Source: Cinnamomum chago (Eukaryota > Streptophyta > Magnoliopsida > Laurales > Lauraceae). From it: a stretch of DNA of 64,000 bases. Positions 28,017-55,239 of the stretch are shown here, in pieces. The position numbers and the translations under genes were made by a program. The notes beneath the pieces are model-generated. The model was not told the DNA's origin. It made no database searches and saw only the letters and a program-made list of their open reading frames with translations. Every line of letters begins with the position of its first letter. Positions within the stretch are counted from its first letter, which is position 1. The DNA lies in contig CP142456.1 in the NCBI GenBank assembly GCA_038049695.1, positions 77,213,422-77,277,421 of the forward strand, read 5' to 3'.

Positions 28017-29159
28017 GTAGCAGAGACTGAGAGAGGTAGGTGTACCTGGCGGTGGCGGACTCCTGGATGGAGGATGATGGGCACAGATGATGGTGATTGG
28101 TGATGGTGGCTGAGTCTGGGAGTTATAGGCGAGAGAGACTGAGAGAAGTAGAGATGAGAGGGATCACCGATCAGGGATGGGTCTGCCCTACGTGTGTTGA
28201 TGGAGGGTGATGATGATTGATGGGGGCCAATGGGCCATGGGGCTGCTGCCTGAGACGATGGGTGGGAGATGTTGGAAAAGGGTTTTGGAAAATGGGGAAA
28301 AGGGTTATTCTCTCCTCTTATGGAAAAGGGTTTTGGAAAAAAGGGAAAAGAGTTTTGGAAATGAGAGACCGGGATAAATGGAGGGACAAAGGGGGAAATG
28401 GGTTTTGGAAAAGGGGCGTTGGATTTGGGGGGGGGGGCGATGGACGTTAGGGCCAGGGGGGGCATTTTAGTCATTTTAAAGGCTTTTCCAAAGCAATACT
28501 TGTAAGAGAGGAATAGACTCAAGTGCGAATGAAATTGGCGCCTTATTTTGTTGGCCGAAATATTTTCGTCTTCCATAACTTATCCTTATTAGTGACGAAT
28601 TACGTTCGTCGCAAAAATAAATTATATTTTGTGACAAAAAATTTCGTCTCCAATGAGCTAAAATAATTCGTACCCGTAAATGAAATTGGCGCCTTATTTT
28701 GGTGACGAAATTTTTCGTCTTCCATAACTTATCCTTATTAGTGACGAATTAAGTTCGTCACAAAAATAAATTATATTTTATGACAAAAATGTTCGTCTCC
28801 AATGAGCTAAAATAATCCGCGCCAAAGCAAATGAAATTAGTGCCTTATTTTGGTAACGAAATATGTTCGTCTTCCATAACTTATCCTTATTGGTGACGAA
28901 TTACGTTCGTCGTAAAAAAAAATTATATTTTGTGACAACAATTTTCATCTCTAATGAGCTAAAAAAATTGGCGCCAACACAAAACAAGTTGGCGCCATAT
29001 TTTTGTAGACGAAATTTTGTTTTCGTCTCCTATACTTTTGAAAAAAAATGAAAACAAACGACAAAATTTATATTTCGTCCTCTTTGGGTGTTCTTTTAAA
29101 ATAAAAAAAATATTTGTCATCAAATTTCGTCACAACAGCCTAAATTTCTTGTAGTGTAT

Positions 29160-30609: not shown

Positions 30610-31485
30610 TCATTCTCTCGTCTCATCCACTAAAACAATATCATCTGCAAATAGCATACACCACGGCACCTCATCCTGAACATGTCTTGTAATCTCATCC
30701 ATAATTAGGGCAAACAAGTACGGGCTTAACGCTGAGCCTTGGTGTAAACCAATCGTGATAGGAAACTCTTTAGTCTCTCCGCCAGTCGTTCTTATAGATG
30801 TCACGGCTCTATCATACATATCCTTTATTGCCTCAATATATGCGACACACACTCTTTTCTTTTCCAATACTCTCCATAGAATCTCTTTAGGAACCCGGTC
30901 ATAGGCCTTCTCCAAGTCAATGAACACCATATGTAAATCTTTCGGACCTTCTCTATACTGTTCCATTAACCTTCTCAGAAGAAAGATAGCCTCCATGGTT
31001 GATCTCCCAGGCATGAAACCAAATTGATTATCTGAAATGTGTGTTGTTCTTCGTAGTCTTCTCTCAATAACTCTCTCCCATAATTTCATTGTATGGCTCA
31101 TCAATTTAATCTTGCGGTAGTTCGCACAGTTCTGAATATCTCCTTTGTTCTTTTATATGGGTATAAGAATACTTTTCCTCCATGCATCAGACATCTTCTT
31201 GCTCTTTAGTACTACATTAAAAAGCTTTGTCAACCAACTTATGCCATCCTCCCCCAAGCACCTCCAAACCTCAATAGGGATACCATCTGGCCCAACTGCT
31301 TTCCCAATTTTCATCCTTCTCAATACTTCTTTAACGTCTTCCCTACTGATTCTCCTATAGAACATATGATTCGATTCTTCCCTAGCAATGGTAAGTTGCC
31401 CCAATTGTATATCACTACTACTGCTATCGTTAAATAACTTGTAAAAGTAGCTTTTCCAACGCTCCTTTATCTCCTCATCCTTCAC
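30610..31485 (-). pseudogene. RTE reverse transcriptase domain (broken)
   Basis: Two blocks are readable: 31485-31153 with MKIGKAVGPDGIPIEVWR, and 31104-30610 with [20 protein letters not shown], the catalytic [12 protein letters not shown], the [18 protein letters not shown] block, and [10 protein letters not shown] with the active-site pair of Asp. A stop and a frame change separate the two blocks. This enzyme would copy element RNA at the nicked target. As read here it cannot be made as one protein. Confidence 0.85.
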
Positions 31486-31869
31486 TAATACATTTTCATC
31501 CTCATCCTTAATGCATTTAACTTGGTTTAAGTCCTTGGTCTGCCTAGCTCTGGCTTTGACAAGTTTGAATAGCTCTCTTTCACCTTCCTTAGTGTCAAGT
31601 CGCCTACATAGCTCATCAAATGCCTTTGCCTCGCTCCACTATCATGCCTCTTTATGTGCCGGAGCGCCCCCTTTGGATTCTCCTAAGACTTCTTTCCCTA
31701 CCCTCCTAATACACTCTGCTACCTTATCCCACATATTATTTGCACTCTCATTTACTGCCCAAACGTCTTCCTCTAGTACTTTTTCCCTTAATGCTAGTTG
31801 CTTATCACCTTTCAAGTTCCACCATTTAGTCATTGAGCATCTATACAACTTCTTTTTTCTAGTCCACCT

Positions 31870-32556
31870 TTATAGCTGCACATCTATTATCAACAACCTA
31901 TGTTGGGAAGTCAAGCTCTCCCATGGTATAACCTTGTAATCTTTACAAGCTAAGCGACCTCTTTTCCTAGTTAAGAGGAAGTCAATCTGTGTCCTTGAGG
32001 AGCTACTCTTATAAGTCACTAAATGCTCCTCTCTCTTCCTAAAAAAGGTGCTAGTTACCATGAGATCATAAGCCACTGAAAACTCCAAAATATCATTCCC
32101 TTCTTCATTTCTATTACCGTATCCATGTCCCCCGTATACTCCTATATATTCATCTATGTCGCGTCCTACATGACCGCTCAAATCTCCTCCTATGAAAACT
32201 ATCTCGCCTTGGGGTATCTCTAGTAGCACTCCTTCCAAGTCTTCCCAAAACTTCTCCTTATGTCCATCTCCTAAGCCCACCTGGGGGGCATAAGCACTAA
32301 TTACGTTCACTATCTCTTCTCCTAAGACTAACTTAATTGCAATAATCCTATCTCCACAGCGTTTTTCACTAACTATATCTTCCTTTAAGTCCTTGCTTAC
32401 CACTATGCCGACCCCATTCCTCGATCTATTAAGTCTCGTATACCATAACTTATACCCAGTTCTCTCAATCTCTTTAGCTTTCTGTCCCACCCACCTTGTC
32501 TCTTGCAAGCAAGCAATTGCGATTCGTCTCATTTCCATTGTATCCACCACTTCCAT
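31870..32556 (-). pseudogene. RTE endonuclease domain
   Basis: This 228-codon frame begins MEVVDTMEMRRIAIACLQET, with the catalytic Glu in LQETRW. It continues through NVISAYAPQVG and the FIGGDLSGHVG motif, and reaches RTQIDFLLTRK and SQHRLLIIDV with the catalytic His. These are the ordered motifs of apurinic-type endonucleases that nick target DNA for RTE insertion. The region is fairly intact, but it is followed by stops before the reverse transcriptase. Confidence 0.85.
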
Positions 32557-32918
32557 AAGTTTCCCAGTTAGGCTCCCAACGTTCCACGTACCTAATCACA
32601 GCCTTCTATTTTGGACTAGCTTCCTTACCCCCCACACTCGTCCCAAGTGTGAGGACCCTTGCCTATTTAGCACTGCACCCGGGCGTCGATGCAGCGGTCC
32701 TTGCTCACTTATCACTGTACTCTGACCATATAGCGCGTCGCTAAGTGGGGGACGCCCCCACGAAATTTCATTAGGTCTTAAATCCATAAAGAAATCTGAC
32801 TAAGTATTGTGTTGGCTGTCGGCTACCTAACGTACAAACCTCCTCCTTTGTCTGGGCTTGGGACCGGCTATGTCAAGGATACCCCAACATGGGCGGAGTT
32901 AAAGATGCGAGTTTGTTA

Positions 32919-33586: not shown

Positions 33587-33689
33587 CACTACTAGAAATT
33601 TGACCTTTTGCTCATGAAAAGGCGGGCGGCTGCTTGTGGCGGTCGCAAAAGGGCCATTAGCGACCGCCTATAGACGAAACGGTGGTCGC

Positions 33690-33944
33690 TAAAAGCCCAT
33701 TACAATCCCCCCCGCCAAACCCTCTTTTTCCTTCCCACTTCTTTTTCCCCTGCTCCCGCGCTCTCTGCATCTCCTTCTCCTCTGCATCTCCGCGCGTCCT
33801 CACTGCCTCGATCCCTCATCTCTCTCTCTCTCCCTCCCTTTCATCTCTCTCTTCTCTCCCTCTCCTTCCCTTCTCTCTCCCTCTCTCCCTGTGTTCAGTA
33901 CCCTCTCTGCCCAGCCGCCAGCGCCTGATTCTCCCTTCCCACTG

Positions 33945-33982
<38 letters not shown>

Positions 33983-34115
33983 TGCACGTCCCTCACCTTG
34001 CGCCTTTCTCGTCTCCTTCGGCATCTCCCTCCTACGCTCACGGTCTCCCTCGCCAGCGCATCCTCACTGTCCCTCCGGCATAGCGGGGCTCTCTCTCTCT
34101 TAGAAGGGTATCCAT
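33690..34115 (+). promoter_or_regulatory. CT-rich leader of the CACTA element
   Basis: A pyrimidine-rich tract with long (TC)n runs (33810-33985) follows the left arm and ends near a possible donor (catcag|gtattc at about 34118). By position it is the likely promoter or 5' untranslated exon of the element's transcripts. The Glu/Arg-rich and Leu/Ser-rich frames it produces on either strand are composition only. Confidence 0.45.
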
Positions 34116-34119
34116 CAGG

Positions 34120-37100
34120 TATTCATCTCTCTTTGCCTCTCTCTCACACATCAAACCTCTTTCCCTAAATCCCTAAACTTCTAACTCTATCCCTGATTTT
34201 TTTTTTAATTTTAGCTTCTCATATTTCCATATTTTTGTGATCTGATTTAAATGTGGTGTAGATGATTAGACTCATTATGTTCATACATGAATCTTATATT
34301 ATGAAGCAGTTGATGAGTTTTAAATGTGGTTTTGATTTGGATTGATTTCAAATGATGTGATTTGTGCAAAATAGTGTCTCTCACTCTTCACATTAGCTTC
34401 TTGGGTTTGCTCAACTTGGTAGCTGATTAGTTAAGTGGAAGTGGAGTGAAAGTGGATTAGGGATTTTGTGTAGAAAAGAGTTTTCGCTTTCAATGTAGAT
34501 GTCATTCTTTTTATATGCAAAGAAATTGTCATTCTTTAAGTAGGAATGGTTTGAAAATCATGGTTGAAGGAGTGTGTGTGTGTGTGTTGTGGAGTGTTGG
34601 GTGAAATGATATGCATCTAATGATATGTAGTGTGATTTGGCCTGCATTTGGATGTGCAACTTTGGTTTATACGATGTACAAGCCTCTACACTGTATCATT
34701 TTTAATGAAAATCTGATTCCCATCCTACAATGCACATTGTATGGGAAGGGATTTAAACCATCCTCCACATGAAATGGGAGAAGAAGGAACTGTTGCTTTG
34801 TTTATATTATTGTCCTTTTGTCGTTCAATGTTACTTTATGATATGCTCCCTTGCTTCTAAAGCGTGCAGTGTTGTTTATACCCTCTTTTGAATCAAAGCA
34901 TTTATAATTCCTCAATTTTGAACGGCTGCAACAATGAGATTTTGTTCATGTGTTGTTTTGAAGATGATAATCATTTCACTATATCAAGAGTTATAGGAAA
35001 CCATTCATAAGAAGAAAAAAAGAAAAAGAAAAAGAAAAAAACAATGATTTACCTTTCAAAATATGTCTCTAACCCGAGGCCTCTCAACTTTATATCACAT
35101 GAACCACACCTGTGAATGTAACTCCAATAGGGAGTCAAACCACAACCCATTTCCGATAGTCATAGTGAGTTTCTCTTCTAAATATAGCCCATTCAAGATT
35201 GTTTCCCAAATATAGTTCTTTCCAACAAGAAAGTAGTCATAAAGTCTCTTTCTAACTAAAACCATGATAATAAAGGAACAAATATTATTAATAATCTTTT
35301 TTAGTGATCCAGGCCATAGGTTTTGCAAGGCTTCAATGTCCATGGATATGTGATGATTCCATCTGTAACCACTATGTCATACTCTTCAATTTATTCTTTA
35401 AACGTTGTGCAGAGTGCAAATCTTGCTGGCATAGCTGATCACAGATTTGTTTCTCTTATCTAACTTCTCCATCTCAAACATTTGTATTTGAGATCCTTGC
35501 AAGTGATTATAGATATTCTACATGTGAATTACAACCAACCACATATGAGTCAAAACACAAGTGAAAAACGAAACTCCAACCAAAGCAAAATCCTCAAGTG
35601 GAAGTATTTCCGGCCATTAACTCTGCCACCAATCGTGCTTGTATTTTTTCCTTACATTTTGTGTCTTGTAGTGGTTGTTTTAGCAAACATTCACTTAGCA
35701 ATTATCATCTTTTCTTTCTGGCTAAGTTCTCAATGGAATTGTTTGACTCAAGTGAATCAGTTTGTATTCCTGAATAGTAAGTTTCTTTAAACAGAAGCCT
35801 CTTGTTATATGATGCCATACTAAAGGGAAAGAAGTCTATGATGGTTCAAATGATTGTAAAGCTCCATTGTTGCCATGTAAATTTAAGATAGTTGCAAACT
35901 TATGGGGTTACTTAAATTTATTTATTTAGGAGATCAATATGGCTACTTTAATTGATCATGACTTGGCAAACAACTGAAGCATAAATGTAAGTGATCTCGT
36001 GATTTTTCATTTAGTTGTTTCCTTGAATTGACTTGTTTAGAAAGTTGGAAGCATAAATACAATAATTTAAATCTATATCCTAGTACTTCTGCTGGTCATG
36101 AAATTCATGGAGAAGTTCAGATCAAAGAAAATTCTGTAGATAATTTTATTGATTTAAAAAAGGCTTCTAATAGAGTGTTTAGGCATTTAATTTGGTGAAC
36201 ACTTACAATTCATTTTTAATTATTATATCAAAATTAAACAAGGCATTTAGAAAGGGGAAGTGATGAGCATGAGAATTGTGTGTGTGGGGAGATGGTTAAT
36301 TCCCTGTTAGAGTTGGATTGCTTTGGGTCTTTCTTGAATTGCCTTTATCATGGACAAATTTAATGGTTGATATCTAAGAAGAAGTTTTTGGGTGTTAGTG
36401 ATGTGGTAGCTGAAAATTAGCACTTCAGCAGTTTAAAGAAAATAATATATGGAGTGTAGGTTCAGTGGATCTAGGAATAAGTAAGATGAGCTTTTCAAAG
36501 TTTAATATTAGGACATTGTGTCATAGATTTTGATATTTAGGAGCAAGTTTAGAATGGAATGGAAACAATAAGTTGGATATATCAAATAGTTAGCAATGGG
36601 TGTGCAAAGTGAAGACAAGCTAGTCAAATGGTGTGGTCATCTAGTGCCACTTTGATTAAAGGAGATAACTGTTAGAATTACTTTGGTAAAGTTATATTTT
36701 GGCCGATTGGGCGTTCATGAAATGCGTGTAAAAGTGAAAATTTTGTATGACTTTTTCGCCTATTATTTCAATCTTAGTGGCAGCTTTGTATTGATCCAAA
36801 TGACAGTGCTGCTTATGTCTTTTGAAGCAAAGCACTCATAAAGCAACATTAAAAGGAAAAAAATGGCATTATCTGCAGAAAAGTGCCCCTCATTTACTGC
36901 CATCTTTGATAAGAATTTTAGGGTTTTTGTTATTGGTGGCCATGTGGCCAAAAGCATAAATCAAAGGAGAATAATCACCTAGTGTTTGGTGATATATCTC
37001 CAAGGAAAAAAGACTCAGTCTTATTAATGTAAAGGTGATGGAATAATGTACTTGACAGAACCCCCCTTCTCTAAAAGCTTGTATTAGATTATTAATGATC

Positions 37101-38217
37101 TAGCTTTGTGCATTATTTTTAGTATGATGATTTTTACATGAAAGAAGGATAAGAATGAATATAAAGATTGTATCTTTGATTTGGGGATGAAAGGATCATG
37201 TGTGCTCTGGCTAAAGTAAAGGGCTTTGGGTCAATGGGAACACTGTATATTATTTGACTGAGCTTTATGGTTATATGGCTTTCTCATATCCATTTATGGG
37301 GTTATGATTGTCCATTGAGGTGGTTGGACTAAGTTGGACCAGAACCACTAGTTCTTGTTTAGTTGATGAAAAAAGATTCATGCCTTCTATAATTTATATA
37401 AGACCCAATATAACTATCATGAGGTTCTTCACACTTTTTTATTTATATGCCGCATACAATTTAACAATTACTTCCCATCCATTAACCCCAAATGGAATCG
37501 GGGTAAGTCTTTGAAAGGCTTTAATTCATCATGCTACATAACAAAGAAGGAAATGATACATAATCCACAAACAAAACTTCAATCTCACAAGATAACAAAA
37601 TTGTTAGGGAATAAAACATCAAAATAATTCCAGTCATCAACATCAATTTTAAATTTGAAGATTTCATTGGTTGTGAACCTTTCATTATCAACTTTTATTC
37701 ATTTGCATGCATTAGTGAAACTTAGACCCGTTCTAGAATTGTGTACGACATCTGTTCGGTAATCCTTGATGCGACGGATTGGGTCTTTTACTAGATTCGC
37801 TGTTCTTATGATGTACATTCGAACTTTGTCGTATACAATTCTTGAATTGTCCAGTTCGGACAGTTTGAGAATGCAATTATCCATCTTATACTCAATAGCT
37901 CATGCAAGTCTGATGTTAGACAGAGTTTCGGTTGATGTCCCATTGTTCTCTGGGTACATATATAGGTACGACTGATGTTGTACTTGTGTCGTGTACTTGG
38001 AGAACCACGCAGACATGCTGCCGAAATTTTGTCTGACTAGGGGACGAAGCATTTGAGTTGTTGAGTGCAAGTTGGATCTGCATTCTCGAATGGGATAGGA
38101 CCAACCACCCTGTAGTAAGGAGTTTGCAGTTTATGGATAGGTGACTTGCATGATGCCACGGTACATTAGGCTAATTATACTTGCTCATTTTAGATTTCCA
38201 CATAAACAATTACGGAG
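34120..38217. other. CACTA element interior, no gene recognised
   Basis: About 4 kb of AT-rich sequence between leader and transposase. A (GT)n run lies near 34575-34590. Open frames at 35095-35343 (minus, ending GNGLWFDSLLELHSQVWFM) and 35482-35790 (plus, one hydrophobic stretch) match nothing I recognise. They could be captured fragments or chance. A long first intron of the transposase transcript would also explain the region. Confidence 0.45.
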
Positions 38218-41200
38218 ATGGACAAGAGTTGGATTGATTTACCGAATAGGATGTCTCGGGAATACATGGAGGGGATTAACCAGTTCATGGAATTTACCAA
38301 TGGGTTTGACAATGAGTTCATCAGTTGCCCATGTAGAAAATGTGCGAATCGGTATTATTACAGAAGAGAGATTGTCCGAGAGCATCTGATTCTGAACGGA
38401 TTCTTGAAGGAGTACAAGAACTGCATAAGACATGGAGAAGAGTATGTTTCCTGTCGCAGAGAGGAAATAGATGAAATTGAGGTGGATGATATGTCAGAGC
38501 CTGATCCGATGATCGCAATGCTAAATGATATTGCGTGCGGGTTGGCACCCGAATACACAAGCTATGAGACTGAGGGGGCAGGTGGGAGTAAACCTCGCTC
38601 TAGTGTCGATGAAGAAGCCTTGAGATATTTTGAAATTCTAGACGATGCACGGATAGAATTGTATCATGGATGCAAGGACTTCAGTAAATTGTCCTTTATT
38701 ATTGAGTTGTTACATTTGAAGGCATTGAACCAATGGTTTGACAAGTCTTTCAATATGCTCCTCCAGTTGTTGCATCGAGTGCTCCCATCCGGTGCAAAAC
38801 TTGCTGAGTCCTACTATCAGGCTCGCAAGTTAACTGAAAATTTAGGCTTCACATATGAGACTTTGGATGCATGTCCGAACAATTGTATGTTGTTTAGGAA
38901 TGAGAATGCCCATCTTGATAAGTGCATTGTGTGTTAGACTTCGAGATGGAAGGAGGACGGGGTTGGTTACAATCGTCAGAATAGTTCTACAAGTGTTATC
39001 AACCGTGGCAAACTTGTGGCAGTAAAGCAATTGAGATATTTCCCACTTAAGCCAAGGTTGAAGAGGCTTTTTATGTCATCAAATATTTCTAAACTGATGA
39101 GATGGCATGCCGAGAATAGCAGGGACGATGGTAAGTTAACCCATCCAGCAGATTCTCTAGCGTGGAAAGACTTCGATCGGAGGAATCCAGACTTTGCCTT
39201 GGATTGTCGCAATGTGCGGCTTGGTTTGGCTGCAGATGGTTTCAGTCCATTCAGATCCATGACTGGGGCAAATCACAGTACATGGCCAGTTGTTTTGGTA
39301 CCTTATAATCTTCCGCCATGGATGTGTATGAAGCAACATTTTCTGATCCTATCCACACTTATTGATGGACCAAGAGGACCAGGGGACAAGATTGATGTAT
39401 ATATGCAACCTCTGATTGATGAATTGAATGAATTATGGGCTGATGGTCTGATGACATTTGATGCCGAAGGCAATGAAATGTTTAAACTCCGCGCCGCATT
39501 ATTATGGACAATCAACGACTTCCCTACGTACGCCAACTTGTCGGGTTGGAGCACAAAGGGAGATTTTGCATGTCCTTGTTGCAATAAGGAGAAGAAGTCA
39601 ACTTGGTTGAAGCACGACAGAAAATGGGTATACACGGGTCATAGGCGTTTTCTACCTCCATTGCATAGGTTCAGGAGGGACAAAGTGTCATTTGATGGGA
39701 GTCGAGAATATGGTCTAGCACCTCGAACAATGACAGGAGTTGAATTGTTGTCACAGCTCGAGCAGGAGCAAATACATACTGTGTATGATTTTCAAGATTT
39801 ACTGGCCCCGGTGCTGCCTTCTATTCCCGGTGCAAATAGAAGGCGAGGTCATAATTGGAAGAAAAAAAGTATTTTCTACGATTTACCATACTGGAAAGAT
39901 AACTTACTCAGGCACAACTTAGATGTTATGCACATCGAGAAGAACGTTTGTGATAATATACTGTGGATCATTCTCGGTGTTCAGGGGAAGTCGAAGGATG
40001 GTGTCAATGCACGCCGTGACTTGGAAGAAATAGGCTTGAGAAAACCGTTGCACTTGCAGTTGAGAGAGTCTAACAAGGCATACATGCCTCCTGCGCAGTA
40101 CACGATGAGTAAAGATGAGAAATATGTCTTCCTCTCAGTTCTGAAGGGTGTCAAGGTTCCTAACGGGTACTGTTCGAATATCGCAAAGCATGTGAACATG
40201 AGAGAAAGAACATTACAGGGTTTGAAGAGTCATGACAATCATATTCTTATTCAACAGTTATTGCCTATCTCCATACGGAATTGTTTGCCTAAGAATGTTG
40301 TAGCACCGTTGATTGAAGTTAGTAACTTCTTCAGACAACTTTGTTCTAGAGTTCATCGAATTGATGAGTTGAATGGTTTGCAAGAGAGGATTGCTGTGAC
40401 GTTGTGTCATGTAGAAAAAAATTTCCCACCTGCATTTTTCGATGTCATGGTTCACTTGACCATACACTTAACCAATGAAGCCCTGCTTGGTGGCCCCGTC
40501 CAATTCAGATGGATGTATCCGATCGAGAGGTACATGAACACATTGAAGAGATATGTTCGTAATAGAGCTCGTCCAGAGGCATCAATAGCGAAGGGGTATT
40601 TGATGGATGAGTGCACCAATTTTTGCGCAGCATATCTTAAAGATAATATTGAAACAAAGTTAACTCGGCCCTCGCGGATTAATGATGGTCCAGTTGGAGA
40701 GGGCACGCCATTTGATCTCAACAATATTGAGTGGATTCAAGCTCACCGGTGGGTGTTGTTCAACACCCCATTTGTTGTGGCTTTGACTCAGTAAGTTATC
40801 ACTCATTTATAAGAGTAACTTGTCAGTTTTTTGCCTAAATCATCATACTTGTCGTTAACACGTGTTATGCATCGCAGGACACACATCGATGAGCTGAAAC
40901 GGGACATGCCTCGTGCTACAGAGAATGAAATTCATCAGTCCCATTACCAGTCATTTCACGAATGGTTCAAGAATCACGTATGTATTCAATCATTAGGAGT
41001 AGTTTCACTAATTCTTGTCATATTACTTTCATGTAGTGATATTCAGTGATTACATGCGTTGTGTAGGAGTGTAGCTTACGAAGAACCAACGATCCGTATT
41101 TGACCGATGAAATGAACCAGTTAGTTGATGGCCCCTTTATAACGGCCCGACGTTACACAACTTGTGATGTCAACGGTTTTCGATTTCACATCAAGGATGT

Positions 41201-41678
41201 AGATGACAAACGAGTGACGCAAAATAGTGGGCTCGGTTGTCCATCCGTCGATGCTAGTTACTACTATGGCTGGTTGAAAGATATTGTTGAAGTTGTATAT
41301 AATCACGAGTTAAAGTTTCTATTGTTTAAGTGTGATTGGGTGGATCCCATCCGAGGGGTGAAAACAGATAATAACCAGTTTACATTGGTAAATTTTAACA
41401 ATTTGTTACATCGTGATGATCGAATAAGTGCTGAACCGTACATACTGTCCTCAATGGCGGAGCAAGTTTACTATGTAAGAGATCCGAAAGATCCTAACTG
41501 GCAGGTTGCAGTTAAAATGTCAAGGAGGGGAGTGTATCAGATTGAATGTGATGAGCCAGATATTGATGCATTCGCCCAACAAGTTCTTGACCAGAATGCA
41601 GTTGTTCAACATGATGAAGATATTAATTGGGTTCGGGAAACCATTGAAGGAGATACAGTTGACTTACATGACCAATGA
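38218..41678 (+). pseudogene. TNP2-type CACTA transposase, one in-frame TAG
   Basis: Three exons are clear: 38218-40790, 40878-40977 and 41067-41678, with GT-AG junctions (Q codon split at the first) and a total of 1,094 residues. The N-terminus is a transposase-associated domain (residues about 4-75, KSWIDLPNRMSREYMEG, then CPCRKCANR). The tnp2 core covers about 270-600, including SGWSTKGDFACPCCNKEK and the conserved LDVMHIEKNVCDN. A DUF4218-like block lies at about 698-800 (HLTNEALLGGPVQFRWMYP), and a DUF4216-like block at about 960-1010 (FLLFKCDWVDP). The protein would cut and join the element's ends in the nucleus. A single TAG at 38935-38937 (codon 240) interrupts an otherwise open frame in a conserved CIVC..SRWK stretch. 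Everything downstream is intact, so the break is recent or bypassed. Confidence 0.93.
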
Positions 41679-41787
41679 ACGGTTGGGAACTAATTCACTA
41701 ATGTTAAATTTTAGTGTAAATAGTTTTTAAATGTTAATTTCAATTATCTCGTTTAATGAAATTTATCTTACAAACATTTAAATAGAT

Positions 41788-43672
41788 ATGTTAGGACGAA
41801 AGAGGAGAGATCGTCCACTGACGATGGACGAGCTGCTGCGCTAGGCCAGCAGGCTGTCTGGGGAACCTAGACCGGCACCGGATGCCGCCCAGTCTGGTTC
41901 GATGGCCCCACCGAGTAGGCCATCGACCTCTCATCCGAGTACATCCACTCCAGTGGTTGCTTCGGCGTAGTCCACTGGGTTCAGCTCCACCATCTCGGCT
42001 TGCATCGGCAGATACATAGACTGGTATAAGTTTATTTAATTAAAATATTTTAATTCTAGCAAATTATTTTATTTCAATTTAATTACATTATCTCTAATTT
42101 AAACAGGTGCTACAAGCACGGGCCCATCTTCCAGCAGGGGGAGAGGCCTGCTAGAGGGATCCGGACATGGAATTCCGGCCATCCCATTAACGTAGAGTTT
42201 GATGAGACATTTCATCTGGTGGGCCCTCATGCTCGCCAGCTCATCAGCCAGTTAGGACATATGGTCCGAGACCCATATGCATTCCCTTTGACTACACTTG
42301 ATTGGGAGGCAATCCCGGTGGAGATGCTAGATCGTACCTAGTAGCAAGTCAAGGTAATAATTTAAAATCTCTCCTCAGGATGTGTCAATTTAAACCATAA
42401 CTTAATGAAAAATTATTTGTCACTGAAAGATTATTTGTCCTTTTCAGGACAATTTGAGGGCATGTCCTGAGCTCTTCCGGCCAGTTTGCATGTCGAAGTG
42501 CCGGAAGATGTGGAAAGACCATAAAAATAAAGTTAAGATGCAACACTGGAAGCCTCATCAGGATGCGCGTGACATACTTCAGCGAGTTCTGAGGGGCGTT
42601 CTCCCTGATCAGTGGACTCAGCTCATCCGGTACTGGATGAGCGAGGAGGTTCAGGTGAGAAACTTGTAATTTTTTTATTTTAATTTTAACAATTTACTAG
42701 TGACTAACGTAACTAACAAAAATTCTGACTGATAAATATTGAAAACAGAGAGTGTCTGCTACGAATGCGCGGAACCGCGCAATGCAGGGTCCCGCACACA
42801 GGTTGGGGACTCGACACATCACCCAGGTCCGCCACGAGGTAAAAAGTTAGATCGTACATGTAATTTATGTTTTTGTCATTCTGTATAATAGTACACTAAT
42901 AATATAACTCTCCACCAAGCAGTTGCGTTCCGATGGTGTTCCGGTCGACAGGATGTCCGTCTGGATGCGTTCTCGAGAACCTCGCCACCCAAAGGTTGCA
43001 GCTATCTTCATAAGTTTTTATATTGAACCGTTTAAATTATGTTTCTATTACAATGTCTTGTTATGCATGATAATATACTAAATGAATCAACTACGCAGGC
43101 CCAGTATCAGTCACGCCTGGAGGAGTTACCTGAGGAGGAGCACAGTTTGCCATCGCGGAGGGATGAGATATTCTACTCCGTCATTGGCCGGGATGGGCAC
43201 GGATACACGCTGACGTATGGGATGGGCATTCCACGCACGCACATCACACGATCAAAGTCATCCGGTGCTAGCTCCTCCCAGGGCATACGCTTCCGTACGG
43301 ATGAGGAGGTTCAGGAGTTGCTGCAGTCCATGAAGGCAGCGATCAGAGAGGATGTGACAAATGAGGTCAGGGTAGAGATGAGGGCCGAGTGGAGAGCGGA
43401 GATGGCAGAACTTGAGAGTCGTCTATCACAGAGTCGCGCCCCGCTCACTTCAGATCCACCACCCACTACTCAGGTTAGAAAGAAAAAAAGATTGTACGTT
43501 TAAATTGTCAAATATGTCATTGATGCATCAGTACTTATGTCTTTTTTTTATTGTTTTTAACTATATAATAAATAATTACGGACACCAGACGCTGGCAGCG
43601 GCCACAGGGCTAGACATGAGTTTGGTGGAGAGGGCAATCAAGATTTAGCAGACTTGACTGATCCTAACCAGG
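41788..43672 (+). pseudogene. Second CACTA transposition gene (Transposase_24/TNPA-like), with TAG stops
   Basis: Seven exons can be laid out with GT-AG borders: 41788 to about 42000, 42107-42353, 42448-42654, 42749-42838, 42923-42994, 43099-43473 and 43589 to about 43671. Exon 2 reads VEFDETFHLVGPHARQL and exon 3 CPELFRPVCMSKCRKMWKDH. Exon 4 carries SATNARNRAMQGPAHRLGTR, the N-rich motif of plant Transposase_24 proteins. Exon 6 gives a Glu/Arg-rich coiled-coil-like stretch after the IPRTH segment. Its relatives act beside TNP2, probably binding subterminal repeats. TAG codons stand at 41842, 41968, 42339 and 42342, all in the reading frame. The last exon's reading frame is uncertain. It starts 110 bp after the transposase stop. 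Confidence 0.8.
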
Positions 43673-43710
43673 TAAAATTATTTTTTTTTTAATTCAAGAT
43701 TTCAAATTTT

Positions 43711-46700
43711 AAGTTAAAACCTAACATAAAACTTAGAAAACGGGCCTCCGGGCGCCCAAAACGAGCAAACGGGCTCCGTTGCCCTTGAATCTTTATGGGC
43801 ACGGGTCCCTAGTCAGCCATGACTTGCAAGAACTGACAGAATGAGATTTCAACTCCCGGATTGCCCGTAAAGTTGAAACGTAGGTTTAAGTTAGAACGTT
43901 AGCTTAAAACTTAGAAAACGAGCCTCCGTGCGCCCAAAACGAGCAACCGGTCTTCGTTGCCGGTGAAACTTGACGGGCATGGGCCCAAAGTCATTCATGA
44001 CTTGCGCGAACTGATGAGCCAAGATTCCGACAACCGGATTACTCGTACAGTTGAAACGTAGGTTTAAGTTAGAACGTTAAGTTAAAACTTAGAAAACGGG
44101 CCTCCGGGTGCCCAAAATGATCAAACGGGGTTCGTTGCCCGTGAATCTTGACGGGCACGGGGCCCTAGTCAGTCATGACTTGCAGGAACTGACGGGATGA
44201 GATTCCGAATCCCGGATTGCCCGTACAGTTGAAACATAGGTTTAAGTTAAAACGTTAGCTTAAAACTTATAAAACAAGCCTCCGGGCGCCCAAAATGATC
44301 AAACGGGGTCCATTGCCCGTGAAACTTGACGGGCATGGGCCCAAAGTCATTCATGACTTGCAAGAACTGACGAGACGAGATTCTGACTCCCGGATTGGCC
44401 GTATAGTTGAAACGTCGGTTTAACTTAAAACGTTAGCCTAAAACTTAGAAAACAGGCCTCCGGGCGCCCAAAATGAGCAAACGGGGTCCGTTGCCCGTGA
44501 AACTTGACGGGTACGGGGCCCTAGTCATTCATGACTTACGGGAACTGACGGGAAAGAATTCTGAATCCCGGATTGCCCGTACAGTTGAAACGTAGGTTCA
44601 AGTTAGAACGTTAACTTAAAATTTAGAAAACGAGCCTCTAAGCGCCCAAAATGAGCAAACGGGGTCCGTTGCCGGTGAAACTTGATGGGCACGGGGACCC
44701 TAGTCATTCTTGACTTGCAGGAATTGACCGAACTAGATTCCAAATCCTGAAATGCCCGTACAGTTGAAACGTAGGTTTAAGTTAGAACGTTAGCTTAAAA
44801 CTTAGAAAACGAGCCTCTGGGCGCCCAAAATGATCAAACGGGCTCCGTTGCCCGTGAAACTTGACGGGCATGGGTCCAAAGTCATTCATGACTTGCAAGA
44901 ACTGACGGAACGAGATTTCAAATCCTGGATTGGCCGTACAGTTGAAACGTAGGTTTAAGTTAGAACATTAGCTTAAAACTTAGAAAACGGGCCTTCGGGT
45001 GTCCAAAATGAGCAAACGGGGTCCATTGCCCGTGAAACTTGACGGGCGCGGGTCCCTAGTCATTCATGACTTGAAGGAACTGACAGAATGAGATTTTGAA
45101 TCCCGGATTGCCCGTACAGTTGAAATGTTGGTTTAACTTAGAACGTTAGCTTAAAACTTAGAAAACGAGAATCCGGGCGCCCAAAATGAGCAAACGGGGT
45201 CTGTTGCACGTGAAACTTGCCGGGTACGGGGCCCTAGTCATTCATGACTTGCAGAAACTGACGGGACGAGATTCCGACTCCCGGATTGCCCGTACAGTTG
45301 AAACGTAGGTTTAAGTTAGAACGTTAGCTTAAACTTAGAAAAAGAGCCTCCGGGCGCCAAAAATGATCAAACGGGCTCCGTTGCCCGTGAAACTTGACGA
45401 GCACGGGGCAATAGTCTTTCATGACATGCAAGAACTGACGGAACGAGATTCCGACTCCCGAATTACGCGTACAGTTGAAGCGTAGGTTTAAGTTAGAACG
45501 TTAACTTAAAACTTAGAAAACGGGCCTCCGGGCGCCCAAAATTATCAAACGGGCCTTGTTGCCTGTGAAACTTGACGGACACGGGGCCATAGTCATTCAT
45601 GACTTACAGGAACTGACGGAACGAGATTCCGACTCCCGGATTACTCGTACAGTTGAAACGTAGGCTTATATTAGAACGTTAGCTTAAAACTTAAAAAAAG
45701 GGCCTCCGGGCGCCCAAAATGAGCAAACGGGGTCCGCTGCTCGTGAAACTTGACGGGCATAGGGCCCCAGTCATTAATGACTTACAGGTACTAACGGGAC
45801 GAGATTCTGAATCCCGGATTGCCCGTACAGTTTGAAACGTAGGTTTAAGTTAGAACTTTAGCTTAAAACTTAGAAAACAATCATCCGGGCGTCCAAAATG
45901 ATCAAACGGGCTCCGTTGCCCGTGGAACATTGGCCGAGCAGTTGAAACGAATGTTTAAGTTAAAACGTTATTTTAAAACCTAGAAAACGGGCCTCCAGGC
46001 GCCCAAAATGAGCAAACGAGGTTTGTTGCCCGTGAAACTTGACGGGCACGGGCCCCTAGTCATTCATGACTTGTAAGAACTGACGAACGAGATTTCCAAT
46101 CCCGGATTGACCGTACAGTTGAAACATAGGTTTAAGTTAAGATGTTATTTTAAAACTTAGAAAACGGGCCTCCAGGCGCCCAAAATGAGGAAACGGGGTC
46201 CGTTGCCCGTGAAACTTGACGGGCACGGGCCCCTAGTCATTCATGACTTGCAGGAACTGACAGAACGAGATTCCGAATCCCGGATTGCCCGTACAGTTGA
46301 AACGTAGGTTTAAGTTAGAAAGTTAGCTTAAAACTTAGAAAACGGGCCTCCGAGCGCCCAAAATTATCAAACGGGCTCCGTTGCCCGTGAAGCTTGACGG
46401 ACACGGGGCCATAATCATTCATGACTTGCAGGAACTGACGGAACGAGATTCTGACTCCCGGATTGCTCGTCCAGTTGAAACGTATGTTTATGTTAGAACG
46501 TTAGATTAAAACTTAAAAAAGGGGGCTTCCGGGCGCCCAAAATGAGCAAACGGGGTCCGTTGCCCATGAAACTTGACTGGCATGGGGCCCCAGTCATTGA
46601 TGACTTGCAGGAGCTGACGGAACGAGATTCCGAATCCCGAAATGCCCGTACAATTGAAACGTAGGTTTAAGTTAGAACTTTAGCTTAAAACTTAGAAAAC

Positions 46701-49700
46701 GAGCCTCCGGGCGCCCAAAATGATCAAACGGGCTCCGTTGCCCGTCGAACATGACGAGCATGGGTCCAAAGTCATTCGTGACTTGCAGGAACTGACAGAA
46801 CGAGATTCCAAATCCCGGATTGGCCGTACAGTTGAAACGTATTTTTTGAGTTAAAACTTTCGCTTAAAACCTAGAAAACGGGCCTCAGGGCGCCCAAAAT
46901 GAGCAAACGGGGTTCGTTTTCCGTGAAAAATGACGGGCACGGGCCCCTAGTCATTCATGACTTGCAGGAACTGACGGAATGACATTTCCAATCCCGGATT
47001 GACCGTACAGTTGAAACATAGGTTTAAGTTAAGATGTTATTTTAAAACTTAGAAAACGGGCCTCCAGGCGCCCAAAATGAGGAAACGGGGTCCGTTGCCC
47101 GTGAAACTTGACGGGCACGGGCCCCTAGTCATTCATGACTTGCAGGAACTGACAGAACGAGATTCCGAATCCCGGATTGCCCGTACAGTTGAAACGTATG
47201 TTTAAGTTAGAACGTTAGTTTAAAACTTAGAAAACGGGCCTCCGGGCGCCCAAAATTATCAAACGGGCTCCGTTGCCCGTGAAGCTTGACGGACACAGGC
47301 CCCTAGTCATTCATGAAATGTAGGAACTGACGGAACGAGATTCTGAATTCCGGATTGCCCGTACAGTTGAAACGTGGGTTTAAGTTAGAACGTTAGCTTA
47401 AAACTTAGAAAACGAGCCTCCGGCCGCCCAAACTGATCAAACGGGCTCCGTTGCCCTTGAAACCTGACGGGTACGAGTCCATAGTCATTCATGACTTACA
47501 GTAACTGACGGAACGAGATTTCGAATCCCGGATTGCGCGTACAGTTGAAACGTAGGTTTAAGTTAGAATGTTAGCTTAAAACTTAGAAAACGGGCCTCCG
47601 GGCACCCAAAATGATCTAACGGTCTCCGTTGCCCATGAAGCTTGACGGACATGGGGCCATAGTCATTAATGACTTGTAGGAACTGACGGAACGAGATTCC
47701 GACTCCCGGATTGCTCGTACAGTTAAAACGTATGTTTATGTTAGAACGTTACCTTAAAACTTAAAAAAGGGGGCCTCTGGGCGCCCAAAATGAGCAAACG
47801 AGGTCCGTTGCCCGTGAAACTTGACGGGCATGGGACCCCAGTCATTCATGACTTGCAGGAACTGACAGAACGAGATTCCGAATCCCGGATTGCCCGTACA
47901 ATTGAAACGTAGGTTTAAGTTAGAACTTTAGCTTAAAACTTAGAAAACGAGCTTCCGGGCGCCCAAAATGAACAAACGGGCTCCGTTGCCCGTCGAACAT
48001 GACGGGCATGGGTCCAAAGTCATTCATGACTTGCAGGAACTGACAGAACGAGATTCCAAATCCCGGATTGGCCGTACAGTTGAAACGTATGTTAAAGTTA
48101 AAACTTTAGCTCAAAACCTAGAAAACGGGCCTCCGGGCGCCCAAAATGAGCAAACGGGGTTCGTTGTCCGTGAAAAATGACGGGCACGGGCCCCTAGTCA
48201 TTCATGACTTACAGGAATTGACGGAACGAGGTTTCCAATCCCGGATTGGCCGTACAGTTGAAACATAGGTTTAAGTTAAAACGTTATTTTAAAACTTAGA
48301 AAACGGGCCTCCAGGCACCCAAAATGAGCAAACGGGGTCCGTTGCCAGTGAAACTTGACTGGCACAAGCCCCTAGTCATTCATGACTTGTAGGAATGGAC
48401 GGAACGAGATTCCGATTCCCGGATTGCCCGTACAGTTGAAACGTAGGTTTAAGTTAGAACGTTAGCTTAAAATTTAGAAAACGAGCCTCCGGCCGCCCAA
48501 ACTGATCAAACGGGCTCCGTTGCCCTTGAAACTTGACGGGTACGGGGCCATAGTCATTCATGACTTACAGGAACTGACGGAACGAGATTTTGAATCCCGG
48601 ATTGCGCGTACAGTTGAATCGTAGGTTTAAGTTAGAACATTAACTTAAAACTTAGAAAACGGGCCTCCGGGCGCCCAAAATGACCAACAGGCTCCGTTGC
48701 CCGTGAAACTTGACGGGCACGGGGCCATAGTCATTCAGGACTTCCAGGAACTGACAGAACGAGATTCCGAATCCCGGATTGGCCGTACAGTTGAAACATT
48801 GGCTTAAGTTAAAACGTTATTTTAAAACTTAGAAAACGGACCTCTAGGCGCCTAAAATGAGGAAACGGGGTCCGTTGCCCGTGAAACTTGACGGCCACGG
48901 GCCTTTAGTTATTCATGACTTGCAAGAACAGACGGAACGAGATTCTGAATCCCGGATTGCCCGTACAGCTGAAACGTAGGTTTAACTTAGAACGTTAGCT
49001 TAAAACTTAGAAAACGGGCCTCCGGGTGCCCAAAAGGATCAAACGGGCTCTGTTGCCCATGAAGCTTGACGGACACGGGGCCATAGTCATTCTTGACTTG
49101 CAGGAACTGACGGAACGAGATTCCGACTCCCGGATTGCTCGTACAGTTGAAACGTATGTTTATGTTAGAACGTTCGCTTAAAACTTGAAAAAGGGGGCCT
49201 CCGGGCGCCCCAAATGAGCAAACGGGGTCCGTTGCCCGTGAAACTTGACGGGCATGGGGCCCCAGTCATTAATGACTTGTAGGAACTGACGGAACGAGAT
49301 TCCGAACCCTGGATTGCCCGTACAGTTGAAACGTAGGTTTAAGTTAAAACTTTAGCTTAAAACTTAGAAAACGAGCCTCCGGGCGCCCAAAATGATCAAA
49401 CGGGCTCCGTTGCCCGTCGAACATTATGGGCATGGGTCCAAAGTCATTCATGACTTGTAGGAACTGACGGAACGAGATTCCAAATCCCGGATTGGCGGAA
49501 CAGTTGAAACGTATGTTTAAGTTAAAACTTTAGCTTAAAACCTAGAAAACGGGCCTCCGGGCGCCCAAAATGAGCAAACGAGGTTCGTTGTCTGTGAAAA
49601 ATGACGGGCACGGGCCTGTAGTCATTCATGACTTGCAGGAACTGACGGAACGAGATCTCCAATCCCGGATTGGCCGTACAGTTGAAACATAAGTTTAAGT

Positions 49701-52509
49701 TAAAACGTTATTTTAAAACTTAGAAAACGGGCCTCCAGGCGCCCAAAATGAGCAAACGGGGTCCGTTGCCCGTGAAACTTGACGAGCACAGGCCTCTAGT
49801 CATTCATGACTTGTAGGAACCGACGGAACGAGATTCTGAATCCCGGATTGCCCGTACAATTGAAACGTAGGTTTAAGTTAGATCGTTAGCTTAAAACTTA
49901 GAAAACGAGCCTCTGGCCGCCCAAACTGATCAAACGGGCTCCGTTGCCCTTGAAACTTGACGGGTACGGGACCATAGTCATTCATGACTTACAGGAACTG
50001 ACGGAACGAGATTTCGAATCCCAGATTGCGCGTACAGTTGAAACGTAGGTTTAAGTTAGAACGTTAACTTATAACTTAGAAAACGGGCCTCTAGGGGCGC
50101 CCAAAATGATCAAACGAGCTCCGTTGCCCGTGAAACTTGACGGGCACAAGCCCCTAGTCATTCATGACTTGCAGGAACTGACGGAACGAGATTTCGAATC
50201 CCGGATTGGCCGTACAGTTGAAACATTGCTTTAAGTTAAAACGTTATTTTAAAACTTAGAAAACGGGCCTCTAGGCGCCCAAAATGAGGAAACGGGGTCC
50301 GTTGCCAGTGAAACTTGACGGACACGGGCCCCTAGTCATTCATGACTTGCAGGAACTGACGGAATGAGATTCCGAATCCCGGATTACCCGTACAGTTGAA
50401 ACGTAGGTTTAAGTTAGAACGTTTGCTTAAAACTTAGAAAACAGGCCTCCGGGCTCCCAAAATGATCAAACGGGCTCCGTTACCCGTGAAGCTTGACGGA
50501 CACGGGGCCATAGTCATTCATGACTTGCAGGAACTGGCAGAACGAGATTCCGACTCCCGGATTGCTCGTACAGTTGAAATGTATGTTTATGTTAGAACGT
50601 TAGCTTAAAACTTAAAAAAGGGGGCTTCCGGGCGCCCAAAATGAGCAAACTGGGTCCGTTGCCCGTGAAACTTGACGGGCATGGGGCCCCAGTCATTCAT
50701 GACTTGCAGGAACTGACGGAACGAGATTCTGAATCCCGGATTGGACGTACAATTGAAACGTAGGTTTAAGTTAGAACTTTAGTTTAAAACTTAGAAAACG
50801 AGCCTCCGGGCACCCAAAATGATCAAACGGGCTCCGTTGCCCGTCGAACATGACGGGCATGAGTCCAAAGTCATTCATGACTTGCACGAACTGACTGAAA
50901 TAGATTCCAAATCCCGGATTGGCCGTATAGTTGAAACGTATGTTTAAGTTAAAACTTTAGGTTAAAACCTAGAAAACGGGCCTCCGGGCGCCCAAAATGA
51001 GCAAACGGGGTTCGTTGCCCGTGAAAAATAACGGGCACGGGCCCCTAGTCATTCATGACTTGCTGCAATTGATGGAACGAAATTTACAATCCCGGATTGG
51101 CCGTACAGTTGAAACATAGGTTTAAGTTAAAACGTTATTTTAAAACTTAGAAAACGGGCCTCCAGGCGCCCAAAATGAGCAAACGGTTTGACGGCCACAG
51201 GGCCCTAGTCATTCATGACTTGCAGGAACTGACGGAACGAGATTCCGAATCCCGGATTACCCGTACAGTTGAAACGTAGGTTTAAATTAGAACGTTAGCT
51301 TAAAACTTAGAAAAACGAGCCTCCGGCCGCCCAAACTGATCAAACGGGCTCCGTTACCCTTGAAACTTGACGGGTACGGGACCATAGTCATTCTTAACTT
51401 ACAGGAACTGACGGAATGAGATTTTGAATCCCGGATTGCGCGTACAGTTGAAACGTAGGTTTAAGTTAGAACGTTAACTTAAAACTTAAAAAACGGGCCT
51501 CCGGGCGCCCAAAATGATCAAACGGGCTCCGTTGCCCGTGAAACTTGACGGGTACGGGGCCATAGTCATTCAGGACTTGCAGGAACTGATAGAATGAGAT
51601 TCCGAATCCCGGATTGGTCGTACAGTTGAAACATTGGTTTAAGTTAAAACGTTATTTTAAAACTTAGAAAACGGGCCTCTAGGCGCCCAAAATGAGGAAA
51701 CGGGGTCCGTTGCCCGTGAAACTTGACGGGCACGGGTTCCTAGTCATGCATGACTTGCTGGAACTGACGGAACGAGATTCCGAGTCCCGGATTGCCCGTA
51801 CAGTTGAAACGTAGGTTTAACTTAGAACGTTAGCTTAAAACTTAGAAAACGGGCCTCTGGGCGCCCAAAATGAGTAAACGGGGTCCGTTGCCAGTGAAAC
51901 TTGACCGGCATAGGGCTCTAGTCATTCATTACTTGCCGGAACTGACGGGACGAGATTCCGAATCCCGGATTGCCCGTACAGTTGAAACGTAGGTTTAAGT
52001 TAGAACGTTAGCTTAAAACTTAGAAAACGAGTCTCCGGGCGCCCAAAATGATCAAACGGACTCCGTTGCCCGTGAAACTTGACGGGCACGGGTCCCTAGT
52101 TATTCATGACTTGCAGGAACTAACAGAACGAGATTCTGAATCCCGGATTGCTCGTACAGTTGAGACGTAGGTTTAACTTAAAACGTTAGCTTAAAACTTA
52201 GAAAACAGGCCTCCGGGTGCCCAAAATGATCAAACGGGCTCCGTTGCCCTTGGAATTTGACGGACATGGGGCCATAGTCATTCATGACTTGTAGGAACTG
52301 ACGGAACGAGATTCCGAGTCCCGGATTGCTCGTACAGTTGAAATATAGGTTTATGCTAGAACGTTAGCTTAAATCTTAGAAAACGGGCATCCGGGCGCCC
52401 AAAATGAGCAAACGGGCTCCGTTGCCCATGAAAATCTACGGGCACGGGGCCATAGCTATTCATGACTTGCAGGAACTGACAGAACGAGATTCCGACTCCC
52501 GGATTGCTC
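43711..52509. repeat. 178-bp satellite array, about 49 copies, with higher-order repeats
   Basis: The unit runs from 'ggtttaagttagaacgttag' through 'ttagaaaacgggcctccggg', 'cgcccaaaatgagcaaacgg', 'cgttgcccgtgaaacttgac' and 'tagtcattcatgacttgcag' to 'gattgcccgtacagttgaaa'. Unit starts at 43883, 44061, 44239 and 44417 give a period of exactly 178. One unit near 45925 lacks about 75 bp and one near 51186 is also shortened. Marker variants recur every seven to eight units: the ggggg variant at 46521, 47769, 49193 and 50620, and the gtgaaaaatgac variant at 46923, 48170, 49594 and 51021. No protein is encoded; open frames here are chance. The array lies between the second transposition gene and the right arm of the CACTA element. 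Confidence 0.97.
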
Positions 52510-53241
52510 GGATCCATCGCAGCACCCTACACGGCCAAATCCTTTTTTTTTCTTTTTCTGTAATTGTAATGGATTTTATTTGTCGAAACTTTTGTAATGT
52601 TGTTAATATAATTAATATAAACCTTTCTTTTGTTATTAGTAATTTTTAACTGATGGCAGTAAAACTTTCTTTTGTTATTAGTAATTTTTAACTGATGGCA
52701 TTAGTTGTATATAATACATTCATGTACAGGTATAAAAAGCAGGAAAAAAATTCAGAAATTTTAGAAATATAGTAAAAAAAGTTAGTAGTATTAGCGGCCG
52801 CCTAAAAGTAACTATTAGCGACCGTTATGGCTGCCGCTAATAGTCTTAAACATTTTAAAAAATTAAAAAAATTACAAAAATTAAATTAATAGCGACCGCC
52901 AGTGCAACTATTAGCGACCGATATGGCGGTCGCTAATAATTAAAAAAAATATAAAAATATAAAAAATTTGAAAAAAAAAAAGTTTTAGTGACGGCATTTC
53001 GATCTGTTTTTAGCGACCACTGTGGTGGCCGCAAATGGCCTTAATTTTTTTTTGAAAAAAGTATTAGCGACCGCCACCTGGCGGCCGCTAATACTTTGAT
53101 GGTCGTTAATACTGTTTGCGACGAGCCAATTGCGTCGGCTGTTGCGCGGTCGCTAGGCAGTCGCTAAAACACTTTAGCGACCGCGAGACAACTTTTAGAG
53201 ACGGCTTTTGGCGGTCGCTAAAAGTCCCTTTTCTAGTAGTG
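52510..53241. repeat. Right arm of the 19.7-kb CACTA element
   Basis: After 250 bp of AT-rich DNA that includes a 36-bp tandem duplication (about 52624-52697, 'ctttcttttgttattagtaa' twice), the arm holds many gcgaccgcc and ggcggtcgc words in both orientations from 52792 to 53222, then the terminal TTCTAGTAGTG. These repeated words match those next to the left end and are the probable transposase or accessory-protein binding sites. Confidence 0.8.
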
Positions 53242-54067: not shown

Positions 54068-55239
54068 CACTACAAGAAATTTAGGCTGTTGCGACGAAAT
54101 TTGATGACGAATTTTTTTTTTGTCTTAAAAGAACACCCAAAGGGGACGAAATATAAATTTTGTCGTCTATTTTCATTTTTTTCAAAAGTATAGGAGACGA
54201 AAATAAAATTTCGTCTATAAAAATATGGCGCCAATTTGTTTTGTGTTGGCGCCAATTATTTTAGCTCATTAGAGACGAAAATTGTTGTAACAAAATATAA
54301 TTTTTTTTTTGTGACGAACGTAATTCGTCACCAATAAAGATAAGTTATGGAAGACGAACATATTTCATCACCAAAATAAGGCGCCAATTTCATTTGCTTT
54401 TGTGCGGATTATTTTAGTTCATTGGAGACGAACATTTTTGTCACAAAATATAATTTATTTTTGTGACGAACTTAATTCGTCACTAATAAGGATAAGTTAT
54501 GGAAGAAGAAAATATTTCGTCACTAGAATAAGGTGTCAATTTCATTTGCGGGCGCGAATTATTTTAGCTCATTGGAGACGAAATTTTTTGTAACAAAATA
54601 TAATTTGTTTTTGCGACGAACGTAATTCGTCACCAATAAGGATAAGTTATAGATAACGAACATATTTCGTCACCAAAATAAGACGCCAATTTCATTTGCA
54701 TTGGCGCGAATTATTTTAGTTCATTGGAGACAAAAAAAATTGTCACAAAATATAATTTATTTTTGTGACGAACATAATTCGTCACTATTAAGGATAAGTT
54801 ATGGAAAACGAAAATATTTGGTCACCAAAATAAGACGCCAATTTCATTTGCAGTGGCACCAATTTCGTTCGCACTTGAGCCTATTCCTCTCTTATAAGTA
54901 TTGCTTTGGAAAAGCCTTTAAAATGACTAAAATGACCCCCCTAAGGCCCTAACGTCCATCCCCCCCCCCCCCCCCACCCCAATCCAACGCCCCTTTTCCA
55001 AAACCCATTTCCCCCTTTGCCCCTCCATCTATCCCGGTCTCTCTTTTCCAAAACCCTTTTCCCCCTTTTCCAAAACCCTTTTCCAGAAGAGGAGAGAAGA
55101 ACCCTATTCCCCATTTTCCAAAACCCTTTTCCAGAAGAAGAGAGAAGAACCCTTTTCCCCATTTTTCAAAACCCTTTTCCAACATCTCCCACCCATCGTC
55201 TCAAGCAGCAGCCCCATGGCCCATTATTGGCCCCCAAGC

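Follow-up and report, generated by a model that had tools for sequence, protein, structure and literature searches.

A 178-bp tandem array in the predicted last intron of a CACTA transposon gene and related satellite blocks in Cinnamomum chago

The start of new centromere-type satellites has long been debated, and usually the finished array alone is visible. A window of 64,000 bp from Cinnamomum chago (the whole stretch analyzed here; contig CP142456.1, C6:77213422-77277421) raises this question in a tractable form, as it contains a CACTA transposon in which a 178-bp monomer is repeated head to tail. How did this array come to lie in the element, and is it related to satellites elsewhere in the genome? 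We examined the window and searched 1.06 Gb in 14 contigs of one assembly for the same monomer. The array is probably an old, inherited part of this CACTA family, located in the last intron of its Transposase_24 gene and spread by transposition, and an array of an older lineage would have founded large chromosomal satellite blocks. More tentatively, the last CACTA intron may act as a satellite nursery that seeds blocks resembling alpha satellite in their higher-order repeats (HORs), which would now be centromeric or pericentromeric on several chromosomes, with intermediate copies persisting.

The array, its element and its inheritance

Tandem Repeats Finder (TRF) reported the 178-bp array at 43708-45928 and 45939-52507, together with a 356-bp row spanning 43708-52507. 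Both a fuzzy anchor count and monomer matching gave 50 units, close to the approximately 49 head-to-tail copies of a preliminary description made from the sequence, whose account of a real array with satellite-like organization is confirmed. Most units are 177-180 bp long; two are shortened (110 and 160 bp), and the final unit stops at 158 bp. The anchor missed the first unit (43708), so that pairwise identity (mean 0.859) and the lag tests refer to 49 units, and the order shuffles, restricted to units above 150 bp, omit the 110-bp unit.

The strongest 12-mer lags include 1424, 1427, 1247 and 1248, in agreement with the recurrence at 1247, 1424 and 1427 bp described earlier, plus 891/892 (five monomers), which that list did not contain. 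Mean identity at a lag of eight monomers was 0.885 (z 6.3), where 2000 order shuffles gave a null of 0.863 with sd 0.0036; the observed value lies barely above the shuffle maximum over any of 19 lags (0.8851). Other lags scored lower, with z at 3.4 for lag 16, 1.9 for lag 15 and 1.3 for lag 7 by itself. Individual monomers are partnered seven apart (m15-m22, m16-m23, m17-m24 and m18-m25), eight apart (m22-m30, m24-m32, m25-m33, m27-m35 and m35-m43) and also at steps of five (m14-m19) and six (m21-m27). Steps of 5, 6 and 7 occupy approximately m14-m27 and steps of 8 extend across m22-m45, while the partner table of the window array holds no regular partners for m01-m12 or m46-m49. The seven- then eight-monomer HORs proposed for the array are therefore retained for its middle, m14-m45, and not for either end. 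In other element copies, the strongest monomer distances are 2 (L023, z 4.7), 6 (L017, z 3.8) and 1-4, 5 or 9, some of them weak. Since the strongest distances differ between copies, the HORs seem to arise in each element copy or its recent ancestors.

The element bearing the array is a CACTA (En/Spm) transposon with terminal inverted repeats (TIRs), a tnp2-type transposase, a second En/Spm-type gene and subterminal repeats (Table 1), and the residence of the array in a transposase-bearing CACTA element, as first described, thus stands. The TIRs begin with CACTA and match at the first 12 of 12 terminal bases and at 20 of 25 overall. The flanking triplets, AAT before and TAT after, agree at two of three bases and form no exact 3-bp target duplication. 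Motifs of the GCGACCGC type occur at both ends of the element and nowhere inside the array. In the main part of the TNP2 gene, an in-frame stop (38935-38937) separates two open stretches of the same frame, 38206-38937 and 38938-40794. For the second gene, whose exon borders were picked by eye, exons 1-5 joined with X at two stops matched Transposase_24 at 59.2 bits (cut-off 28.7, E 6.5e-16). These two stops, at the end of exon 1, may represent damage or a mistaken border, and the sixth exon of the window copy is preceded by CG at the acceptor position, with no AG.

Table 1 Features of the array-bearing CACTA element, in window coordinates (a slash marks a splice junction)
Feature	Position	Strand	Detail
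CACTA element holding the array	33587..53241	+	19,655 bp; highest-ranking CACTA...TAGTG pair in the scan
Left TIR and subterminal motifs	33587..33690	+	CACTACTAGAAA at the end; GCGGTCGC / TAGCGACC / GGTCGCTA at 33639-33691
TNP2 gene, main part	38206..40794	+	Transpos_assoc 8.8e-22; Transposase_21 5e-93; DUF4218 4.9e-46
TNP2 gene, 3' part	41067..41678	+	DUF4216 8.5e-20
Second gene, Transposase_24 type	42107..43671	+	six modelled exons: 42107-42353, 42448-42654, 42749-42838, 42923-42994, 43099-43473, 43581-43671
Predicted donor site of the array intron, with short leader	43672..43707	+	CAG/GTAAAATT, array 36 bp on; 13 copies aligned
Array of 50 units of ~178 bp	43708..52507	+	TRF; fuzzy anchor count; monomer matching
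HOR-bearing part of the array, m14-m45	46131..51815	+	partner table; lag test
Sequence like the last exon, abutting the array, acceptor missing	52508..52540	+	15 copies aligned; likeness by eye
Right arm, subterminal motifs and right TIR	52780..53241	+	motifs 52792-53213; TIR ends at 53241

Judged from its splice signals, the array occupies the final intron of the second gene, of Transposase_24 type, and does not simply lie between that gene and the right arm as originally placed. The donor, 36 bp before the array start, reads CCAG/GTAAAATT in most copies and varies in a few. On the 3' side, the 14 other copies aligned carry an A+T-rich tail, followed in 13 of them by the acceptor TTCAG/GTTTGA, which is one base off in L017; with the frame read by hand, the stop codon is the second codon past this splice. 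The window copy is without the A+T-rich tail and the acceptor, its array being joined directly to the last-exon-like sequence. The longest array counted, that of the window, is thus found in a copy lacking the splice acceptor; L023, with 42 monomers, retains it. Because the intron would be spliced out and would come last in the gene, just before its end, the array could grow or shrink at little cost, its length changing cheaply by local unequal exchange or slippage, and CACTA transposition would carry it to new sites.

Copies of tnp2 elsewhere in the genome address the inheritance of the array. At 97% identity, 39 other places were listed (40 scored of 704 first-look candidates), and 10 kb downstream was taken for the first 20. 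All 19 copies that keep the 5' flank contain the array, with 3-42 monomers matched per stretch, and none of these 19 has an empty array intron; the remaining copy, L014, shows no similarity to the element downstream. In six of the 19 (L018-L020 and L025-L027), 0.5-3.7 kb of other sequence separates the flank from the first matched monomer. The stretches of L009 and L010 include no right arm, and some monomer counts are lower bounds. Together with the window copy, the arrays range from 3 to 50 matched units. The array also occupies the same place in all three examined copies of an older lineage.

At least about 35 places in the genome hold such an array. Flanks were examined for five of them (L002-L008), revealing CACTA flank within 3.4 kb in four; the fifth (C3:52.66 Mb) has no CACTA flank in the 3.4 kb examined. 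Another array of the monomer, at C6:77330298-77332270 on the minus strand, lies approximately 65 kb from the window array in opposite orientation. Among 11 arrays, the first monomers share an identity of 0.924 between copies, and internal monomers are more alike within copies (0.886) than between them (0.867). Because the first monomers are alike between copies and the internal ones are more alike within copies, these comparisons indicate an array that is passed on with the element and whose interior turns over.

Chromosomal blocks of the same monomer and the direction of flow

The preliminary description had suggested that the array could seed a satellite, an idea said to fail if other copies of the family lacked the array and the unit occurred nowhere else. 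The opposite was found: every flank-keeping copy examined has the array, and the unit forms large separate blocks on C3, C12 and C9. The main testable consequence of the seed idea is thereby borne out; its direction is favored, the trees discussed below being unrooted. A 32-base monomer pattern with up to two mismatches matched the genome 9239 times on the forward and 3368 times on the reverse strand (control, 0), and its exact matches include a dense cluster on C3 spaced at 5.5 kb.

On C3 (block of ~0.32 Mb), the 10 kb examined is satellite throughout, organized in a HOR of 5518 bp, or 31 monomers, whose copies are 100% identical over the 4482 bases compared. Exact 47-mers extend over 86.976-87.153 Mb, mostly in 5.5-kb steps with gaps, and matches begin at 86.836 Mb. 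The C12 block (~0.86 Mb, 46.629-47.485 Mb) lies on the strand opposite to that of C3 and has a HOR of 4255 bp, or 24 monomers, seen in eight successive intervals, one of them 4257; 14 kb was examined there, including one locus (L031) that is satellite over about 4.5 of 10 kb. A third block (~0.6 Mb) is located on C9, where three exact matches span 39.841-40.451 Mb; all three short stretches sampled contain satellite, including one at 40.200 Mb picked without a match, and one of the three is satellite in its first 0.6 kb only. Of 20 further positions sampled within or close to the blocks of C3 and C12, one was satellite (C12:46.88 Mb), so that the extents given are outer bounds. In the 30 kb (four loci) of the C3 and C12 blocks, no CACTA sequence other than the monomer was found. 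A second repeat family, LTR-like (long terminal repeat) by eye, borders the satellite on both C3 (L030, 1-3730) and C12 (L031), the two being 83% alike over 1393 bp. The 178-bp monomer therefore occurs both inside dispersed CACTA elements and in long arrays outside them, in the parts of the blocks sampled, and long homogeneous HOR arrays are present on C3 and C12.

The forward-strand excess of approximately 5,900 matches is not accounted for by the blocks found. With 13 pattern matches per 5.5-kb unit, the C3 block contributes some hundreds, below this excess. An excess appeared again with one further pattern (3237 vs 441) and not with two others (239 vs 247; 58 vs 36); these further monomer patterns did not place it, and it is not on C1 or C2 among the exact matches listed. 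A further large block probably exists, and one composed of another monomer variant would explain the excess.

Block and CACTA monomers are closely related: their consensus sequences differ at 8-13 of 178 positions, compared with 6 between the C3 and C12 blocks. Trees were built unrooted from a random 100 (young copies only) or 80 (with old copies) of 198 internal monomers; matches shorter than about 130-150 positions were dropped from the unit matching, the block/CACTA comparison and the old-copy trees, and the second HOR copy of L029 was left out of the block monomer comparison. In the tree limited to young CACTA copies, the monomers of blocks and elements split without error (228 leaves, support 0.82), and the nearest CACTA leaf was a 5'-edge monomer for all 84 block monomers.

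Older copies of the element alter this picture. A block-type 43-mer occurs at 16 dispersed places, and the three examined (C5:80.49, C11:3.25 and C7:5.12 Mb) are all older CACTA copies, with flanks 85-89% identical over 1.5-2.0 kb. A tree including two older copies, L053 and L054, places the blocks plus L053 against the rest (support 0.88, 2 misplaced), and of the 22 informative sites in the flanks, 21 unite L053 with L054 to the exclusion of two young copies. When L055 is added, 12 of the 150 CACTA monomers group with the blocks, L053 contributing 10. Since the blocks attach to L053 and not to its flank sister L054, the monomer comparisons favor escape from an L053-like copy over early capture of a satellite. 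Less surely than the inheritance within the family, an array of the older lineage would have left its element and founded the blocks, which may afterwards have gained their long HORs specific to each chromosome (of 31 monomers on C3 and of 24 on C12).

Several observations weigh against this account. Adding L055 lowers the support for blocks plus L053 to 0.77-0.79 (3 misplaced), and a split uniting the blocks with all old copies fits badly (13 misplaced, ~0.5). By mean identity, each of the 11 L053 monomers lies closer to the monomers of young CACTA copies than to either block. The array of L055 is mixed: its first two full monomers carry variants of the block type, and the three that follow carry those of the CACTA type. 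The young-only tree separates blocks and CACTA cleanly, and identity within blocks (0.79-0.81 vs 0.867 for CACTA internal monomers) also fits the blocks as the older stock. In addition, the trees have no outgroup and use short monomers, the splice reading is sequence-based only, one assembly was used throughout, the sample covers ~30 kb of the ~1,200 kb that the blocks on C3 and C12 span, and the excess forward-strand matches are without a location.

Alternative explanations and possible functions of the array

The strongest competitor, which we consider rather unlikely, is that the chromosomal satellite is older and that an ancestor of the CACTA family took a piece of it into its intron, as proposed for a CACTA element of quinoa. 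The greater diversity of the blocks, their clean separation in the tree without old copies and the position of the 5'-edge monomer as nearest neighbor of every block monomer are all compatible with capture, which is also the reading that the quinoa authors gave of their own case in the sections describing it (PMC8978399). Two results are harder to reconcile with it: the block monomers join L053 and not L054, though both are sisters in their flanks, and the array is at the identical place in young and older lineages. On balance, we regard escape as appreciably, though not overwhelmingly, more probable than capture.

A two-way history, in which monomers passed repeatedly between blocks and CACTA arrays through conversion or recombination, with no single direction, appears improbable. 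The succession of block-type and CACTA-type monomers in L055 would suit it, as would L053, which is mixed at position 73; no monomer, however, is misplaced among the 228 leaves of the tree with young copies.

Selection for a function of the array, as a structured RNA, a protein-binding platform or a silencing target, is very improbable. The consensus monomer has a stable predicted RNA fold (z -3.57; none of 200 shuffles equally stable), and double changes in structure pairs among 385 CACTA monomers exceed those in shuffles (102 vs 85.5, sd 9.0; outer helix 32 vs 14.0), an excess to be read with the caution that related sequences can surpass shuffles without real structure. Block monomers show no such excess (47 vs 49.4; outer helix 12 vs 13.8), and the fraction of cells paired is 0.8987 vs 0.8977 in shuffles. 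A structured RNA was not adopted, covariation being at best weak in CACTA monomers and missing from block monomers. The array is richer in CpG than the rest of the element (observed/expected 1.19 vs 0.69), and no intron was empty among the copies examined; however, CpG positions are conserved no better than other C/G (0.901 vs 0.897), and copy number varies over the whole range given above. The earlier suggestion of a platform for element proteins was not upheld as far as tested and is rejected: the subterminal motif and its variants (six strings) are missing from the array, and elsewhere in the element each is present 2-7 times. Overall, there is no good sign that the array functions in the element, and a neutral mechanism is the simplest.

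An assembly artefact, in which the assembler made the array lengths and perfect HORs, is the least credible explanation: it could produce the complete identity between 5518-bp units, but the units of the window array diverge by 14% on average, arrays of various lengths are found at more than 20 places, and no N is present in four block loci and 20 further spots.

Relation to known systems and other features of the window

Satellites born in transposons are already known; what seems new here is an array in a CACTA intron together with HOR blocks of the same monomer. The nearest parallel is a tnp2-bearing CACTA element of Chenopodium quinoa, with a 171-bp array of 32.5 units near its 3' end (PMC8978399). 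It resembles the window array in unit length, 3' location and dispersal by a CACTA element, but is described as a captured satellite, and the sections on it mention neither an intron position nor HORs. Similarity between the quinoa monomer and the window consensus is suggestive (p 0.003) and weaker with four other consensuses (0.019, 0.037, 0.101 and 0.159); kinship is not claimed.

In Lathyrus sativus, satellites originated from short arrays within LTR retrotransposons (PMC7004042). As proposed here, a short transposon-internal array grew into a long satellite at certain chromosome regions; the host, however, is an LTR retrotransposon and not a CACTA element, and the abstract mentions no intron. 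The Chenopodium satellite CficCl-61-40 likewise has a CACTA source, but its ~40-bp monomer derives from a fragment of the tnp2 coding domain, according to the relevant part of that report (PMC7320549), rather than from an internal 178-bp array. Internal arrays of Helitrons and miniature inverted-repeat transposable elements (MITEs) occur inside and outside the elements, according to two reviews (PMC9659126, PMC12628747); these are DNA transposons with internal arrays as well, but of superfamilies other than CACTA. In the text available to us, CACTA is named twice in PMC9659126, once as the tnp2 case, and not at all in PMC12628747. The passages of the Ipomoea nil genome report that concern CACTA elements of the Tpn1 family mention no such array (PMC5105172).

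Among the best-ranked papers of the open-access literature, none showed a CACTA gene with an array in its last intron or chromosome-specific HOR blocks related to CACTA elements, a weak negative as subscription papers lie outside it, and monomer letter strings gave no matches in open-access paper texts.

Human alpha satellite is composed of monomers of 170-180 bp arranged in long chromosome-specific HORs with near-identical copies. The C. chago blocks appear alike in form, and no sequence relation is claimed. One genome here holds intron-placed transposon arrays, an older intermediate lineage and large HOR blocks together, and this coexistence makes both the direction of flow and the role of splicing in array tolerance directly testable. 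It also gives reason to re-examine CACTA arrays previously read as captured satellites.

Other features accompany the large element in the window. A short CACTA-type element at 26462-29156 has ends (CACTACAAGAAA) that match at 12 of 12 bases, with TAT flanking both sides. Inverted arms at 28229-29156 and 54068-55225, 82-96% complementary in pieces and containing 152-bp tandem repeats, lie on either side of the large element and are apparently two copies, in opposite orientation, of one smaller CACTA family. On the minus strand, open stretches at 30610-32595 resemble, by eye, a retroelement of the long interspersed nuclear element (LINE) type. O-methyltransferase domains (Dimerisation and Methyltransf_2) are encoded at 4565-5374.

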